A DNA stretch of 64,000 nucleotides from Thioalkalivibrio versutus (GCF_001999325.1 NZ_MVAR01000012.1:47903-111902), one strand, 5' to 3'. Positions 45,850 through 52,906 are shown, counted from the first letter of the stretch. Numbers and translations are program-made. Notes: generated by a model not told the origin, from the sequence alone.

Positions 45850-46569
45850 TCAGTTGCTGTGGGGTGCCGGCTCGGGTGCCGTTAGCAGGGTCTGGGCGCG
45901 TTCAAGCAACTCACCGGCGGCATCGGGTTGTTCGCGCAGGGCGCGGCTCCAGTGCGGGAACAGGTTCTGTTCCTCGCGGCCTTCGTGCTTGGCCAGCGCG
46001 CCGGAGATCAGGGCGAAGAACGGGGCCACGGCCCAGGCCTCGTCCACGCCTTCGCTGAATTCGTGTTCCAGCATCGCGGTCTGTTCCAGGATCTCGTCGT
46101 GCTCGCGCAGCATGATCGAGGTGGGATCCTGGCCGTTCGGGCTGCGGGGCAGGTCCAGCAGGGGGACGATCAGGTCGTTTTCCACCTCCACGTGGCGACG
46201 CAGGCCGTCGACATAGGCGTGGAAATCCGGTGCTGCGCCTTCGAGGTCGCCGGTGTTGACCTTGTGCAGGGCGCTGGCGAACAGGCGGTCGATGCGCAGG
46301 TGATCGCGTTCCAGCAGGTCGACCAGGTCCACCGGGGCGACGTCCTCGCGGCGTTGTACCGCGAGCTTCCACAAGGGCGGGCCGTCTTCGAGCACCCGCC
46401 AGTGGATGGCCTGACGCAGCTGCAGGCTGACCGCGTCCATCAGCATCTTCGGTTCCTGATCAAGCCAGACCTCGAAGACCTGACCGCTGCGCAGTTCGCG
46501 CAGGGTGTAGTAGGCGCGGGTGTGGGCCTGTTCGGCCAGGCCGCGGAGGTCGAGTACGAAATCAGCCAC
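45850..46569 (-). CDS. DUF2249-hemerythrin protein
   Basis: Predicted 239 residues. The N-terminal 75 residues (FVLDLRGLAEQAHTRAYYTL, then VFEVWLDQEPKML and LEDGPPLWKLAVQRRE) are a DUF2249 domain. The rest is a hemerythrin-like bundle with iron-ligand patterns HLRIDRLF, HVEVENDLIVPLL, HDEILEQ and HEGREEQNLFPHW. Such proteins bind a di-iron centre and sense or store O2 or NO. The GTG start overlaps the end of the other hemerythrin gene by eight bases. Both read away from a TTGAT-N4-ATCAA box. Confidence 0.85.
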   Translation of the reverse strand: MADFVLDLRGLAEQAHTRAYYTLRELRSGQVFEVWLDQEPKMLMDAVSLQLRQAIHWRVLEDGPPLWKLAVQRREDVAPVDLVDLLERDHLRIDRLFASALHKVNTGDLEGAAPDFHAYVDGLRRHVEVENDLIVPLLDLPRSPNGQDPTSIMLREHDEILEQTAMLEHEFSEGVDEAWAVAPFFALISGALAKHEGREEQNLFPHWSRALREQPDAAGELLERAQTLLTAPEPAPHSN

Positions 46570-47107
46570 GGTCTGCGCTCGCGATGCCCCGGCGTGCGGC
46601 CATGGCGGCACCGATGGCGCGGCGGTCTTCCGGGCTTAGCAGGTGCTCGGCAAAGGGGAGTACGGCGCGCTCTTCCAGATCGAGGTGGATGCGGTATTGG
46701 CGTATCCAGGCGTCGGCCCCGTCGAGGTCCGCCGGCTGGCCCGCGGCGATGCGTTGCAGGGCCGGCTCCAGTCGATCCCAGCCGGCCTCGATCTCGTCAT
46801 GTTCGGCGGTCAGGCGGTCCAGCCATTCGCACAGTTGCGGATGACTCTCGGGGTGGCCACAGTGCTGGCGCAGCACGGGGAACAGGTCCTGGTCCTCGTC
46901 CGCGTGGTGGTTGGGCGCTGCCTCGTGAAAGTAGTTCAGGACCCGTTGCGCGGCGCCTCGGGCCTCTTCGTCGGCGCCTTTGTCGGCCAAATGGGCGGGC
47001 AGGCGCTCGAGGATGTCCAGAGAGTTGAGGATTCGGCGATGGCACGCCCGCAGCAACTCGATGGGCTGCTGGAATCCGGGAACACTTTCGTGGAGTTGCG
47101 CGTGCAT
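46562..47107 (-). CDS. Hemerythrin-domain protein
   Basis: Predicted 181 residues, a four-helix bundle. Iron-ligand patterns: CHRRILNSLDILE, NHHADEDQDLFPVLRQHC, HDEIEAGWDRLE and HLDLEERAVLPFAEHLL. The C-terminus ends in LSPEDRRAIGAAMAARRG, as in many NO- or O2-responsive hemerythrins. The ATG giving MHAQLHESVPG is preferred to an upstream reading into the AT-rich control region. First gene of the leftward pair, divergent from the CcoN-like gene. Confidence 0.87.
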   Translation of the reverse strand: MHAQLHESVPGFQQPIELLRACHRRILNSLDILERLPAHLADKGADEEARGAAQRVLNYFHEAAPNHHADEDQDLFPVLRQHCGHPESHPQLCEWLDRLTAEHDEIEAGWDRLEPALQRIAAGQPADLDGADAWIRQYRIHLDLEERAVLPFAEHLLSPEDRRAIGAAMAARRGIASADRG

Positions 47108-47174
47108 GGGGTATCGGACCTTCGCAGAGTGGTCAACAAGCAGGCGACTTTCGCCGAAGCGCTCGCGCCCCGTC

Positions 47175-47188
47175 TTGATCTCGATCAA
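47175..47188. promoter_or_regulatory. FNR/DNR-type box
   Basis: TTGATCTCGATCAA is a perfect TTGAT-N4-ATCAA site, bound by FNR, ANR, DNR or NnrR. It lies between divergent genes. The centre is 47181.5; a -10-like TATGCT at 47212-47217 would start transcription near 47223, giving a -41.5 position, the class II activator spacing. Control of the leftward hemerythrin genes is less clear, as no -10 sequence was found on that side. Confidence 0.8.
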
Positions 47189-47211
47189 TGTAAATTGAAT
47201 ATAGCTTAAAG

Positions 47212-47217
47212 TATGCT
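47212..47217 (+). promoter_or_regulatory. Candidate -10 element of the redox operon
   Basis: TATGCT, with the FNR-type box taking the place of a -35 element. The following ATG is 47244, giving a short leader of about 20 bases with GGAG at 47234-47237. Confidence 0.5.
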
Positions 47218-47243
47218 GTGCGAAACCTGGCCTGGAGCTTTTG

Positions 47244-47642
47244 ATGCACCCTCGGAACCGGATGTTCATCCTCGCGGCCCTCGCCTATGCCCTGCTGGGC
47301 GGGCTGCTCGGCATCCTCTGGCTGGCCCATCCCGGCCTGATCCCCGGCAATGTGCCGCGCATCCATGGCCACCTGATGCTGCTGGGGTTCGTGACCATGA
47401 TGATCTATGGCGTGGGTCTGCATGTGTTGCCGCGCTTTTCCGGACGTTCGCTGTTCTCCGAGCGCCTGGGCCATGTGCAGTTCCTGCTGGCCAATCTCGG
47501 GCTCCTGGTGATGATCGCGGGCTGGCTGGTCTTTCATAACCCGACCGTCGCGGTCGGCGGGGCGATGGCCTGGGGGGCGATGATCCTGTTCGCACTGAAC
47601 ATTGCACTCACCGTGCGTCACTACGGTCCGAAGGGGGCGTAA
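47244..47642 (+). CDS. Small CcoN/NnrS-like membrane protein
   Basis: Predicted 132 residues and four membrane helices. The run RIHGHLMLLGFVTMMIYGVG followed by LHVLPRFSGR resembles part of cbb3 oxidase subunit I and of NnrS, with two or three His residues that could bind heme. It is far too short to be an oxidase. The start is the ATG at 47244 (GGAG six bases before); a TTG one codon earlier is unlikely. The TAA overlaps the ATG of the next gene. The box upstream suggests induction by low oxygen or NO. Confidence 0.8.
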   Translation: MHPRNRMFILAALAYALLGGLLGILWLAHPGLIPGNVPRIHGHLMLLGFVTMMIYGVGLHVLPRFSGRSLFSERLGHVQFLLANLGLLVMIAGWLVFHNPTVAVGGAMAWGAMILFALNIALTVRHYGPKGA

Positions 47643-48094
47643 TGAGTCATACGGAATACAACGGCTGCGAGTTGCCGGACGACCTGTTCTATGACCTGGA
47701 TTATGTCTGGGTCCGTCCGGAGGACGACGGCACCTTTACCCTCGGGATTACCGATCCCGCCCAGACCATGGCGGGGCGGGTGCAGTACTTCCGCTTTCGC
47801 AAGCCGGGTTCGCACCGCGCCGCGGGCAAGCCGGTGGCGCGGCTGGAGTCCGGCAAGTGGGCGGGGGGCATCCCTACGCCGTTCGACGGCACCATTGAGC
47901 GCATCAATCCGGCCGTGGAGGCCGATCCGGGGCTGGTGAACGTGGCCCCCTATACCGATGCCTGGGTCGTGGTGATGCGCCCGGACGATCCGGAAGCGGC
48001 GCTGGAGCGGCTACATACCGGGGCCGAGGCGATTGCCGGTCTGAAACAATGGGTCGATCGCTACGACATCCACTGCATGCGCTGCGCGGACTAA
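47642..48094 (+). CDS. GcvH-like lipoyl-domain protein with C-terminal CxxC
   Basis: Predicted 150 residues. The outline matches glycine cleavage H protein: LDYVWVRPEDDGTFTLGITD, then VARLESGKWAGGIPTPFDGT with the Lys where lipoate is attached, then TIERINPAVEADPGLVN. It differs in its extended loop and in a C-terminal YDIHCMRCAD, adding a CxxC pair. No gcvT or gcvP is near, so it is not for glycine cleavage. A lipoate-based sulfur or electron carrier for the fused thioredoxin and rhodanese next door is one possibility. Start overlaps the previous stop (TAATG). Confidence 0.8.
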   Translation: MSHTEYNGCELPDDLFYDLDYVWVRPEDDGTFTLGITDPAQTMAGRVQYFRFRKPGSHRAAGKPVARLESGKWAGGIPTPFDGTIERINPAVEADPGLVNVAPYTDAWVVVMRPDDPEAALERLHTGAEAIAGLKQWVDRYDIHCMRCAD

Positions 48095-48104
48095 GGGCGG
48101 GATC

Positions 48105-48773
48105 ATGAAAGTGGAACTGCTGGTGTCCGAGTGGTGCGCCTCCTGCCACGATGCCGAGCGCATCTGGCGCGAGGTGTCGGAAAACAAACAGATCGACTTC
48201 GCGGTGGTCGACATGGGCCAGCCCGAAGGGCGCGAACTGGCGACCCGGCTGCGCATCCGGTCGATCCCGGCCGTGGTGGTGGATGGCGAGCTCAAGCACA
48301 TCGGGCTGCTGGATCGCACTGCCGCGACCGCACTGGTGGCGGAGGCCCCGGAACGCACACAGAAGGCCGCGCGCCATGTCGGGCTGGGGTTGTCGGCCTC
48401 CAGCCGGGCCTCGGTGCTGGGCGCGATGATCTGGCTGCTGATCGCGGGTGCCGCGTTGCCACTGGGCGGGTTCTTCCTCGAGGGTGCGGCGCGTCCGGCC
48501 GCGCTGCATGGCTTTACCCTGGGTTTTCTTCTGTTGCTGATCATGGGGCTTGGCGAGCACATGCTGCCGCGCTTTACCGGCCACCCGATCGCCAGTGGCT
48601 GGCTGTGGGCCTGGACGCCGCAGGTCCTGGTGCATCTGGCCGTGCTGGGCATGGGGCTCGGCTGGATCCTGGGCGTTGCGATGTTAACGGCGGTGGGTGC
48701 GGTGGCGGCGCTGGTCGGGCTGGTCCTGTTCACCCTTCGGGTGGTCCCACTGCTGGTACGTCCGTCGTTGTGA
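48105..48773 (+). CDS. Thioredoxin-like domain fused to CcoN/NnrS-like membrane domain
   Basis: Predicted 222 residues. Residues 1-80 are thioredoxin-like with the redox pair WCASC (11-14) and RIRSIPAVVVDGE (cis-Pro). After a linker come four membrane helices including ALHGFTLGFLLLLIMGLGEH followed by MLPRFTGHPIASG, the same H-x-LPRF-[ST]-G run as in the protein from 47244. The domain order would place the thiol part near a heme-like membrane site. No described protein of this form comes to mind. Ten bases separate it from the H-like gene. Confidence 0.8.
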   Translation: MKVELLVSEWCASCHDAERIWREVSENKQIDFAVVDMGQPEGRELATRLRIRSIPAVVVDGELKHIGLLDRTAATALVAEAPERTQKAARHVGLGLSASSRASVLGAMIWLLIAGAALPLGGFFLEGAARPAALHGFTLGFLLLLIMGLGEHMLPRFTGHPIASGWLWAWTPQVLVHLAVLGMGLGWILGVAMLTAVGAVAALVGLVLFTLRVVPLLVRPSL

Positions 48774-48822
48774 CCCGGGCGCGCGCTAAACTTGCGGTTC
48801 ACGCAGCCAACGGAGTCCTCCT

Positions 48823-49170
48823 GTGAGTCTTTTCGAGAAGCGTATTCGCGAGCTGGAACAAAGCCTGCCGCATCTGGAACCAGGGGAGGTGGCGCGCTGG
48901 CTCGAGGAAGAGAAATCGTTTCTGCTGGTGGATGTGCGCCAGCCCGAGGAGGCGGCCGCGGGGACGATCGAGGGCGCGATCAACATCCCGCGGCCCAAGC
49001 TAGAGGCCGGTATCGAGTCTCATATGGCGGATGCGGACCAGCCCGTCGTGGTGTTCTGTGGCGGTCGCGGCCGGTCCCAGCTCGTGGCCGACAGCCTGCG
49101 CACGATGGGTATCAATGCGCATGTGCTGCGCGGGGGCTACGCGGCGTGGCGGGAGACCTGGCCTCGGTGA
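48823..49170 (+). CDS. Rhodanese-domain sulfurtransferase
   Basis: Predicted 115 residues. A short N-terminal helix (IRELEQSLPHLEPGEVARWL) precedes a single rhodanese domain: FLLVDVRQPEEAAAGTIEGA, and the active loop VVVFCGGRGRSQLVADSLR with the sulfur-carrying Cys. It has a GTG start. It ends the four-gene run and could pass sulfane sulfur to the thioredoxin or lipoyl partner; this is inference. Confidence 0.9.
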   Translation: MSLFEKRIRELEQSLPHLEPGEVARWLEEEKSFLLVDVRQPEEAAAGTIEGAINIPRPKLEAGIESHMADADQPVVVFCGGRGRSQLVADSLRTMGINAHVLRGGYAAWRETWPR

Positions 49171-49774: not shown

Positions 49775-51367
49775 TCAGCCCCAGTAACCCTGGCGATACC
49801 ACTGGCCGCTGCGCAGGCAGCGGTACAGCCAGAGCCGGCGGCCCTGACGGTCGCGGCTGCAAGCGTAGTCGCGGCGCGCGTCCTGGCCGTGATCCCACCA
49901 GCCGTCTTCCAGTCGTCCCAGCCATTGGGGCTGGTCGGGGGGCGCGGCGGGCTCGGGGCCCTGTAGCCAGAGGGCAGTTCCGCAGGCCCGTTGGCCCGGG
50001 GTTGGAGCGGTGGGGGCCGGAGTGGTGGCGAGATCGTGTCGCGGCCGCTGGGCATCCTCCGGTCTCGGTGTGCGGCGGTTGATCAGACGGGCGACGGCCT
50101 GCTCGCCCAGCCGGGCGCGCAGGCGAGCCAGCACGGCGGGGAGCTGATCGGCCGGGGGTCTGCTCGCCGGGTCTGCGGCGAGCAGACTGTCGCCCCGGGC
50201 CGGTGGGTCCAGCAAGCGGGGTGCCTGCAGGCGCAGGCCGATCACCGCCGCCGGCAGGGTCTCGCGATCGAGTCGGGTCTGCCACAGGGGCAGCCACTCG
50301 TCGGTGCGAATGCCCGGCTGCCCGCGCTCCAGTGAGATGCGGGTACACGCCTCGCGGTGGGCCAGTTCCAGTGTCATCCCCTGCAGGCTGCGGTTCAGGC
50401 CGCGCAACTGCGCCTCGGCCTGGCGCAGCAGCCGCTTGAGCGGGAAGGCCAGGGTCGCCGTGGCGTGGATCTCGTGCTCCAGCCGCAGGGACAGATCCAG
50501 CACCGGGGGTGGCGCAAAGCGGGGCAGGGTCTCCGCGCGCCGCGCCAGCAGTCGGTCCAGCAGGTCCAGCAACTCCGGTCCGTGGCGTCGGGCCAGTTCG
50601 GGGCGCGACAGGCGCAGCAGATCGCCCAATTGGCGCAGGCCCACGGCGCGCAGGCCCTCGCGGGTCGCGGCGGCCAGTGGCAGGGCCTCCAGCGGAACCG
50701 GGGACAGGATGCGGCGCAGGGCCTCGGGGTCTTCCGCGATCGCGGGGTTGCGCAGGCGGGCCAGCAGGCGCGCGGCGGCGGGGCTGCGGGCCAGTCCGAT
50801 ACGGGGATGGAAGCCCAGTTCGGTCAGGGTGTCCCGCGCCTGGTCGCGCAGGGTCTCGAGGCCGCCGAACAGGCGGCGGCTGCGCCCGACCTCCACCAGG
50901 ATGCGCTGTGCCTCCGGCTCCGGGTGCACGTGATCGGAGAACCGCAGCAGTACGCCGGCCAGCATCTCCAGTTGGGCCTGCAGGGTGTCCGGGGCATGCT
51001 CGACCAGTTCCGGGGTATCCAGCACCGCCAGGGCATCCCCCAGCGCCATGCCGGGGCGGGCACCCGCCTGGCGGGCGGCGCGGTTGGCGGCGTGCACCCG
51101 GGGGGCAGGGTCGGATTCCACCACCAGCAGGGGGCGCTGCAGCCGCCCGGGGTCCGGCTCCGTCCGGGCCAGCGCGTCCAGCGCAAGGTGCGGCAGGTCG
51201 ATTGCCATCCAGTGTTCCTGCCGCGGCCGGGCGTCGCGGGTGGCGGTATGCGTCTCCGGTGGCCGGGGTGCGGTGGCGGGCAGGGCTGCGGCCGGAAGCA
51301 GGCTCAGTTGTTGTCGGACCGGCTCCGGGTGTGTGGCCGCACGCGAGGGACGGGCAGGCTGGCCCAT
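49775..51367 (-). CDS. imuB: ImuB, inactive Y-family polymerase homologue
   Basis: Predicted 530 residues. The polymerase-like part starts near residue 54 (AIDLPHLALDALARTEPDP) and lacks the paired acidic residues of Pol IV/V, as ImuB does. It serves as a hub for mutagenic translesion synthesis with ImuA and DnaE2. The first 50 residues are a proline- and alanine-rich tail with a QLSLL run (20-24) that resembles a beta-clamp motif. Its ATG lies two bases before the end of imuA. No dnaE2 gene is in the window. Confidence 0.88.
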   Translation of the reverse strand: MGQPARPSRAATHPEPVRQQLSLLPAAALPATAPRPPETHTATRDARPRQEHWMAIDLPHLALDALARTEPDPGRLQRPLLVVESDPAPRVHAANRAARQAGARPGMALGDALAVLDTPELVEHAPDTLQAQLEMLAGVLLRFSDHVHPEPEAQRILVEVGRSRRLFGGLETLRDQARDTLTELGFHPRIGLARSPAAARLLARLRNPAIAEDPEALRRILSPVPLEALPLAAATREGLRAVGLRQLGDLLRLSRPELARRHGPELLDLLDRLLARRAETLPRFAPPPVLDLSLRLEHEIHATATLAFPLKRLLRQAEAQLRGLNRSLQGMTLELAHREACTRISLERGQPGIRTDEWLPLWQTRLDRETLPAAVIGLRLQAPRLLDPPARGDSLLAADPASRPPADQLPAVLARLRARLGEQAVARLINRRTPRPEDAQRPRHDLATTPAPTAPTPGQRACGTALWLQGPEPAAPPDQPQWLGRLEDGWWDHGQDARRDYACSRDRQGRRLWLYRCLRSGQWYRQGYWG

Positions 51368-51368
51368 C

Positions 51369-52001
51369 TCAGGCCTCCGGTGGTTCGGGAACCTGTAGGG
51401 GGTGGCCGGAGCGGGCCCAGTGGCCGGCCCCCTTCAGGCAGTGCAGTTCCAGGCCGGAGGCCGCGGGCTGCCAGCGCAGGCGCTGGTGGGCCGGCGAAGG
51501 CTGTGCCGCGGCGTTTGGTGGCCGGTACAGGATCGCGCAGGCCCGGCTCTCGCTGGCAGCCAGACGCAACCGGCGCAGCAGGGCCGTCTCCACGGGGCCG
51601 CGCAGCCAGGCGAGCAGGACGCCGAACGCCGGGTCGCGCAGGCACTGCTCGCCGGCCCACAGGGTGTCGCGGTCGTGCTCGGTATGGATCAGCAGGACTC
51701 GCTCCGGCGGGATGCCGAGGGTCTGCCAGCCGGGTAGCCAGGGCGTGGCCGGCGGTGCGATCAGCGCGATCCAGTAGCCGTCGCGGCCGCAGGCGGCGAG
51801 CATGGGGATCAGCAGCCGGGTCTCGCCGCAGCCGAACGGGGCCCCCAGCAGTTCGATCAGCTGGCCGCGCGGCCAGCCGCCGCCCAGGGCCCGGTCCAGT
51901 TCCGCATGGCCACTGGGCCAGACCGGGGCATCCGTGGCCGGGGCAGCACTGCGCCCGCGCCAGAGCGCCGGGTGGTTGAGCAGGGTATCCAGCGCGCTCA
52001 T
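51369..52001 (-). CDS. imuA: ImuA, translesion synthesis protein
   Basis: Predicted 210 residues, RecA/SulA-like. VWPSGHAELDRALGGGWPRGQ and LIELLGAPFGCGETRLLIPM carry a relaxed Walker A (GAPFGCGET), followed by WIALIAPPATPWLPGWQTLG and ILLIHTEHDRDTLWAGEQCL. Partner of ImuB and DnaE2 in damage-induced mutagenesis. A repeat element separates it from lexA; its start is four bases from the element's left flank. Confidence 0.88.
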   Translation of the reverse strand: MSALDTLLNHPALWRGRSAAPATDAPVWPSGHAELDRALGGGWPRGQLIELLGAPFGCGETRLLIPMLAACGRDGYWIALIAPPATPWLPGWQTLGIPPERVLLIHTEHDRDTLWAGEQCLRDPAFGVLLAWLRGPVETALLRRLRLAASESRACAILYRPPNAAAQPSPAHQRLRWQPAASGLELHCLKGAGHWARSGHPLQVPEPPEA

Positions 52002-52005
52002 GGCT

Positions 52006-52291
52006 TAGGGAAACACTGATTCATGTACACGCTCGCGCTCGAGTCGCTTTTGCGTGCGAACAAGGCGCGGTGACTGCCGTGCAGTCATTCTGCACAAGGG
52101 AGCCGCAACGCCGTGCGCGCGCAAAAGCGGCCGAGCCCCGTCTTTCAATAGCTTGCGGGGTTGGCACCCCAGGTTTCCCGATCCTGCGTTGCGCCGCTTA
52201 CGGGTAGAACCACTACCCGCTGCACGACGCGCCTTGTCTCGGAAAACCTGGGGTTCCAACGCGAGTGTGTACATGAGTCAGTGTTTCCCTA
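52006..52291. mobile_element. Complete miniature inverted-repeat element, copy B, inside lexA-imuA-imuB
   Basis: The ends are TAGGGAAACACTGATTCATG and, reversed, TAGGGAAACACTGACTCATG; the match runs about 30 bases with three changes, and TA flanks both sides (52006-52007, 52290-52291). Inside, two stems: CGCTTTTGCGTGCG (52045-52058) with 52116-52129, and 52160-52181 with 52239-52260, with a tip CGGGTAG-AACCA-CTACCCG at 52201-52219. It has no open frame of note. It matches copies at 1-241, 38524-38815 and 24647-24674. The TA flanks suggest a Tc1/mariner-like (IS630) or YTAR-type (IS5) transposase, acting in trans. Confidence 0.85.
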
Positions 52292-52906
52292 GGCCTGCGG
52301 GTCGAGATCGCGCAGCACGCCCACGCCGATCCCCTCGATGGCCAGGTCCTGGCGCTCGAGGTCGATCTCGATGGGGGCGAAGTCGGGGTTCTCCGGGAGC
52401 AGGCGCACCTTCGGGCCGTCCTGCGCGAAGCGCTTGACGGTGACTTCGTCCTCGATGCGGGCGACCACGATCTGGCCGGGCCGGGCCTCCGGGGTCTGGC
52501 GCACGGCCAGCAGGTCGCCGTCGAGGATGCCGGCGTCGCGCATGCTCTCGCCGTGTACGCGCAGGAGATAGTCCGGGCGGGCGCGGAACAGGGCGTCGTC
52601 GACCCGGTAGTGGCGCTCGATATGCTCGGTGGCGAGGATCGGCGAGCCGGCGGCGACGCGCCCGACCAGAGGGAGTTCGGCCGGTGCGCCACGGGCGGCG
52701 CCCGGCAGGCGGATGCCGCGGGAGGTGCCGCCCAGCAGTTCGATCGCGCCTTTCTTCTCCAGGGCTTTCAGATGGCACTCGGCCGCGTAGGGCGAGCGGA
52801 AGCCGAAGGCCCGGGCGATCTCGCTGCGGGTCGGTGCCGTGCCCTGGGTGGCGATGGTCTCGGCGATGTAGTCGAAGATGGCTTGCTGGCGTGCAGTGAG
52901 CGACAC
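52289..52906 (-). CDS. lexA: LexA repressor
   Basis: Predicted 205 residues. The winged helix (1-65) reads [20 protein letters not shown]. The self-cleavage site is A86-G87 in RVAAGSPI; the Ser121 (HGESMRD) and Lys158 (VTVKRF) dyad is intact. It represses SOS genes until RecA filaments trigger cleavage. The stop codon TAG comes from the last bases of the element that separates it from imuA. A CTGT-N8-ACAG box precedes it, so it represses itself. As a lexA next to imuAB it may be a second paralogue of the genome. Confidence 0.93.

Follow-up and report, generated by a model that had tools for sequence, protein, structure and literature searches.

LbpA proteins are defined by a lipoyl lysine and two cysteines, one near each end, that are missing from GcvH (Cao et al. 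2018, PMC6067878). They have so far been known as components of sHdr sulfur-oxidation clusters, and their lipoate has been suggested to pass electrons from sHdr to NAD+ (PMC6067878). Another described system is the DNR/FNR regulon that responds to nitric oxide (NO); in Acidithiobacillus ferrooxidans, the cgb-COG0543 operon has been predicted to serve DNR-controlled NO detoxification (Rodionov et al. 2005, PMC1274295). In this study, we analysed a 64,000-nucleotide (nt) stretch of the Thioalkalivibrio versutus genome (NZ_MVAR01000012.1:47903-111902; hereafter the window) and found at 45850-49170 a gene set built around a third kind of LbpA, for which we use the working name LbpA3. This set may be a conserved low-oxygen/NO redox module of sHdr-type sulfur oxidisers, in which lipoyl electrons would flow via thioredoxin to heme and di-iron sites. 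We give this reading a probability of about 0.4.

The window genome holds four full GcvH-type proteins. The true GcvH is encoded between gcvT and gcvP on contig C15, LbpA1 and LbpA2 are encoded inside the sHdr cluster on contig C18, and the fourth is LbpA3. In an LbpA3 alignment of 98 rows, K72 and C148 were conserved in 98/98 and C9 and C145 in 97/98. C9 and C145 are common to LbpA3 and LbpA1/2, and the added cysteine of LbpA3 makes a C-terminal CxxC (C145, C148). In a maximum-likelihood tree of 96 rows, the LbpA branch was supported at 100/100, and LbpA3 formed one clade (98/91) that was sister to LbpA1 (99/96). By alignment and tree, LbpA3 is a third clade of the LbpA family of sHdr lipoate-binding proteins. 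It shares with LbpA1 and LbpA2 (PMC6067878) the GcvH fold, the lipoyl lysine in ESGKW, the N- and C-terminal cysteines and a branch apart from GcvH, but differs from them in its own clade, in its C-terminal CxxC and in its location outside hdr clusters, where it adjoins hemerythrin, heme-type, thioredoxin and DNR/FNR elements. Because the LbpA3 gene neither belongs to nor adjoins an hdr-like cluster, we regard the protein as an LbpA-family paralog rather than an LbpA of the sHdr system; membership of that system would further entail lipoylation by sLpl(AB) and a requirement for the protein in forming sulfite. Its nearest named match is a 99% identical protein of Thioalkalivibrio strain ALMg11, and the motif EYxGCELP...ESGKW...CMRC can serve as a marker for finding further members.

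The initial annotation had described a GcvH-like carrier without any glycine cleavage genes. The lipoyl carrier type was right, but the protein belongs to the LbpA clade and not to GcvH, and the glycine-cleavage genes are present elsewhere in the genome. A stray GcvH was ruled out by the tree and the cysteines; the GcvH equivalog score was 79.2 against a cut-off of 115.85, and the gene is not linked to gcvT/gcvP. No description of the LbpA3 gene set was found in the open-access literature on lipoate with hemerythrin, NnrS or NO, in keeping with the earlier view that no named pathway has this set, and the third clade itself is undescribed there.

All six predicted open reading frames (ORFs) were confirmed around one control region, with a leftward hemerythrin pair facing a rightward run. 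The interval first assigned to the set begins at 46562 and therefore covers one hemerythrin only, the second lying just outside it to the left. The features are as follows.

45850..46611, minus strand: DUF2249 + hemerythrin protein (Pfam PF10006, PF01814), second gene of the leftward pair
46562..47107, minus strand: hemerythrin (PF01814), divergent from the operon and conserved together with it
47175..47188, no strand: FNR/DNR-type palindrome TTGATCTCGATCAA, centre 62.5 nt before the ATG at 47244
47212-47217: -10-like hexamer TATGCT
47244..47642, plus strand: CcoN/NnrS-like protein of 132 aa with four transmembrane helices (4-TM protein), invariant H41-x-H43 and H60
47642..48094, plus strand: LbpA3, GcvH fold, predicted to bind lipoate (PF01597, 103.6 bits), with K72, C9, C145 and C148
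48105..48773, plus strand: thioredoxin domain (CASC; PF13192) fused to a second 4-TM domain, invariant H135 and H152
48823..49170, plus strand: rhodanese (PF00581), after the operon in Thioalkalivibrio only

The true start of the DUF2249 + hemerythrin protein is probably nearer 46569 than 46611.

The conservation of this neighbourhood, proposed earlier as a check, was examined in one genome per species (84,980 species) with two N-terminal peptide patterns, and the best 80 of 96 matches were kept. In these 80 loci the gene set recurs in two arrangements, in Thioalkalivibrio, Acidithiobacillus, Acidiferrobacter, Thiobacillus, Sulfuriferula, Sideroxydans, many proteobacterial metagenome-assembled genomes (MAGs) and one Terriglobia-labelled MAG. 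The type-1 arrangement, as in the window, consists of the 4-TM protein, LbpA3 and the thioredoxin/4-TM fusion, and the type-2 arrangement, found in Acidithiobacillus and Acidiferrobacter, of a hemerythrin, LbpA3 and a free thioredoxin of ~82 aa, often with a globin, a Fer2/FAD/NAD reductase, DUF488, a CopD-like protein or a lipoate ligase. Within 5 kb of LbpA3, the thioredoxin/4-TM family was found in 75/80 loci (a joint count of both proteins, because their families were merged by single linkage via the fusion), hemerythrin in 52/80, a Crp-type regulator in 38/80, the reductase in 17/80, globin in 13/80 and lipoate ligase in 12/80. None of sHdrA, C1, C2, B2, DsrE, LipS and LipT was encoded in the 80 loci, and HdrB1-type matches occurred in two; membership of an hdr cluster was ruled out by this search. 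A thioredoxin domain and a sulfurtransferase had both been assigned to the set, and both are present; the rhodanese, however, was found behind the operon in no genus but Thioalkalivibrio, which makes it accessory at most and rules it out as a core member.

Some loci have features of their own. Several Acidithiobacillus genomes have two or three LbpA3 loci whose flanks differ, which suggests duplication or mobility: Acidithiobacillus sp. HP-2 (L098, L101, L112), A. sulfurivorans (L114, L116) and A. montserratensis (L106, L123). In L092, L111, L113 and similar loci, an LplA-type lipoate ligase (PF21948) at ~6.1-7.2 kb is oriented divergently to LbpA3 and the DNR-like regulator, and it shares ~26-33% identity with the ligase region in the sHdr cluster of the window genome. 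The type-1 locus of L059-L064 is flanked by genes that, by eye, look like moaB, moaC and moeA, a hint that this lineage may connect the set with nitrate reductase or molybdenum. Thioalkalivibrio halophilus (L076) has a divergent LbpA3 (65% identical), near which hemerythrin and box were not found.

LbpA3 is nearly always accompanied by other LbpAs. In an even sample of 369 genomes of the class, with thresholds of ≥55% identity for LbpA3 and ≥64% for LbpA1, LbpA3 was found in 18, LbpA1 in 20 and both in 16, where ~1 was expected (Fisher p=2e-22; the p-value is inflated by shared ancestry). The LbpA3 genomes of the sample span 11 families, so the co-occurrence is not confined to one clade. Two sampled genomes have LbpA3 without LbpA1, one of them 75% complete and the other G226, and four (G182, G035, G033 and G330) have LbpA1 without LbpA3. 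For the genomes behind the named loci, together with two further relatives, our reading of the hit lists gave one or more other LbpAs in 29/33, mostly as an adjacent pair; many of these genomes are incomplete MAGs. Judged by its genes, the window genome is that of a sulfur oxidiser: contig C18 carries an sHdr/LbpA/Lip cluster that looks complete, and the genome encodes a protein that we take to be SoxB-like, for which Pfam gives 5'-nucleotidase/metallophosphatase domains only. The idea that the adjacent lipoate ligase substitutes for a missing sHdr ligase was rejected because most ligase-bearing genomes also hold the LbpA1/2 pair.

The palindrome TTGATCTCGATCAA upstream of the rightward run is, as had been noted, a perfect TTGAT-N4-ATCAA; it is the only one in the window and one of seven in the 2.83-Mb genome. 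At least three of the other perfect boxes precede ccoN (PF00115), a CCP/MauG peroxidase gene and a cytochrome c pair. Genes of these kinds are typical FNR targets. The TATGCT hexamer is placed as a class-II FNR promoter requires relative to the box, which bears out the class-II distance initially assumed. At some loci in other genera the -10 hexamer is TATAAT at an equal distance from the box, and at three loci 40.5-41.5 nt separate the box centre from the ATG itself, the spacing expected of a leaderless class-II promoter. In 20/35 listed type-1 entries (one locus being listed twice), the first gene is preceded within 200 nt by a perfect TTGAY-N4-RTCAA, where 0.007 per 200 nt was expected. The box upstream of type-1 operons is not due to chance, and its position and recurrence predict FNR/DNR-type control of the gene set, as the initial annotation had proposed. 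Two further perfect boxes of the window genome are recorded here: one lies ~390 nt upstream of the SoxB-like start (C5:60919; L002:3920), where oxygen control of thiosulfate oxidation is possible, and the other (C7:108750; L003:4251) has as neighbours an ORF for a small membrane protein and a molybdopterin oxidoreductase/Fe-S pair.

A Crp/FNR family search of the window genome gave a single true FNR (motif CQHCTLRQLC, 1.2e-61 to FNR); DNR-like proteins were not found. DNR-like regulators flank LbpA3 loci in other genera only, and not in this genome: linked Crp-type regulators from three different groups had DNR as their best PDB match (4.7e-40, 9.8e-37 and 4.2e-45), and the FNR cysteine motif was not present in those examined. 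Because of these matches, FNR most likely reads the box in the window genome, and the adjacent DNR-like regulator does so in other genera. The locus thus resembles the DNR/FNR NO-response regulons (PMC1274295) in its TTGAT-N4-ATCAA box at a class-II position, in DNR-like regulators, and in globin, reductase, hemerythrin and NnrS-like members. It differs from them in including a lipoate carrier and a thioredoxin, and nor/nir genes are not linked at the window locus.

The two membrane proteins share putative heme ligands, as had been suspected. In a 22-row alignment of the 4-TM protein, H41, H43 and H60 were invariant, and H41-x-H43 aligned with the HVH in helix X of the genome's own CcoN. This HVH carries two heme ligands in CcoN. 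In the thioredoxin/4-TM fusion, whose thioredoxin domain contains a CxxC (CASC), H135 and H152 were invariant. Both proteins may be predicted from their histidines to bind heme. The model of the 4-TM protein (pLDDT 88) overlapped with cbb3 and NO reductase subunits, with a TM-score of up to 0.77 by query length and a Foldseek E-value of > 0.001; a profile sequence search of PDB with this protein gave no match. The 4-TM unit with its HxH heme-ligand helix, the ligand pattern of heme-copper oxidase subunit I, and its structural overlap with cbb3 and cNOR subunits are thus a likeness to CcoN/NorB and NnrS. The locus protein differs in having only 132 aa and four helices, with scores under the Pfam cut-offs of COX1 (26 vs 34.8 bits) and full-length NnrS (16.3 vs 28 bits), in having no evident CuB site and in its second copy fused to thioredoxin. 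For the AlphaFold model of the fusion, plausible matches were thioredoxins only; the two top matches, to G-protein-coupled receptor fusions, had a TM-score of 0.30. The hemerythrins resemble the di-iron proteins YtfE/RIC in fold and in their NO-type context, but both are far under the RIC/YtfE equivalog cut-off (19.7 and 19.2 vs 204.7 bits).

Based on these features, the following pathway may be proposed. K72 of LbpA3 would receive its lipoyl group from the sHdr-type ligase system, and the dihydrolipoyl arm of LbpA3 would be reduced by sHdr or dihydrolipoamide dehydrogenase. LbpA3 would then pass two electrons through its CxxC to thioredoxin and, via thioredoxin, to a b-type heme in the membrane pair. 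At this heme NO (or O2) would be bound and reduced, while the hemerythrins would bind NO/O2 in the cytoplasm. The CxxC of LbpA3 beside thioredoxin would thus be a branch of the sHdr-LbpA-NAD+ route toward heme and di-iron centres. Switched on by FNR in the window genome and by the adjacent DNR-like regulator in other genera, the module would protect the Fe-S-rich sulfur-oxidation machinery, which depends on radical S-adenosylmethionine (SAM) enzymes, when O2 falls or NO appears. A link to NO/O2 is suggested by the DNR-like regulators and by the globin and Fer2/FAD/NAD reductase in Acidithiobacillus loci; the globin and reductase of type-2 loci are of the kind in the cgb-COG0543 operon of A. 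ferrooxidans, whose predicted NO role was arrived at independently. The lipoate ligase adjoining LbpA3 in 12 loci and the co-occurrence with LbpA1 in 16/18 genomes are further points in favour of the module. The initial annotation had envisaged an NO- or oxygen-responsive route linking heme, lipoate and sulfane sulfur. The box, the lipoyl carrier and the heme ligands agree with it; the rhodanese gives no basis for the sulfur arm, which, since that gene is restricted to Thioalkalivibrio, rests on LbpA kinship instead.

Co-occurrence with nor genes, which the initial annotation had named as support for an NO role, was not found. The only heme-copper oxidase-family gene (PF00115) of the window genome is ccoN, so this genome is without NorB. 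Most operon-bearing Thioalkalivibrio have a single heme-copper gene, and nor linkage is therefore not seen; a few have a second one. These observations speak against a nor-linked denitrification accessory, and the lack of NorB is consistent with the genome requiring some other defence against NO.

Several observations weigh against the redox module. The proposed electron flow is deduced from gene content; the 4-TM protein is under its Pfam cut-offs, its fold matches have E-values of > 0.001 and CuB ligands are not evident in it. About 15 type-1 loci have no perfect box, nor do most Acidithiobacillus-type loci near LbpA3. The latter also have neither membrane protein, so the heme step cannot be universal, and thioredoxin, hemerythrin and LbpA3 remain. 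Furthermore, the genome has no NorB, and no nir genes are linked at the locus (NirS/NirK were not searched genome-wide). A real competitor, although somewhat unlikely, is that LbpA3 takes part in sHdr sulfur oxidation itself as an isoform for low oxygen, carrying sulfur or electrons from sHdr, with thioredoxin and the membrane heme pair feeding quinone and the NO/O2 proteins merely sharing the regulator. The near-strict company of LbpA1 (16/18 LbpA3 genomes) could reflect either shared lipoylation enzymes or shared function, LbpA1 is the nearest kin of LbpA3 in the tree, LbpA has been proposed to hand on electrons via lipoate (PMC6067878), and a rhodanese lies downstream in Thioalkalivibrio. 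This rhodanese is not conserved, however, the loci are without sHdr, DsrE, LipS and LipT genes apart from the two HdrB1-type matches, and the partners of LbpA3 are O2/NO-type proteins and DNR-like regulators.

The frequency of hemerythrin and globin, together with FNR as the likely reader in the window genome, would also suit simple oxygen protection, with hemerythrins and heme proteins scavenging O2 for Fe-S/radical-SAM enzymes and LbpA3 and thioredoxin only keeping thiols reduced. This is quite unlikely, since FNR-type control activates once O2 is already low and the Crp-type regulators of 38/80 loci are DNR-like where tested. GcvH in Bacillus serves as a lipoyl/octanoyl relay. A similar hub role for LbpA3, making or shuttling lipoate for LbpA1/2 at low oxygen, would account for the ligase adjoining it in 12 loci and for its confinement mostly to genomes with other LbpAs; it is improbable, as it leaves the thioredoxin, heme and hemerythrin partners unexplained and four LbpA1-positive genomes do without LbpA3. 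It is hardly credible that the genes are unrelated members of an FNR regulon and neighbours by chance. FNR boxes do draw functionally mixed genes, and the rhodanese appears to be one such neighbour, but the set is met with, in several gene orders, in different families of the class.

Outside the gene set, the window contains at 49775-52906 what is probably an SOS mutagenesis set, with ORFs that by eye resemble LexA, an ImuA-like protein and an ImuB-like polymerase.

In conclusion, LbpA3 is kept almost only with other LbpAs, yet it is encoded in a heme-type, hemerythrin and thioredoxin set with predicted FNR/DNR control. This suggests lipoate as a link between sulfur lithotrophy and the NO/low-oxygen response. 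Lipoate-dependent reduction of NO (or O2) in NorB-free sulfur oxidisers, running from the dihydrolipoyl arm of LbpA3 through CxxC and thioredoxin to the minimal heme pair, is an unlikely outcome, but if true it would be a third role of lipoate beyond carbon metabolism and sHdr sulfur oxidation. For sulfur oxidisers that have no NO reductase, the gene set is a concrete candidate for a means of coping with NO.

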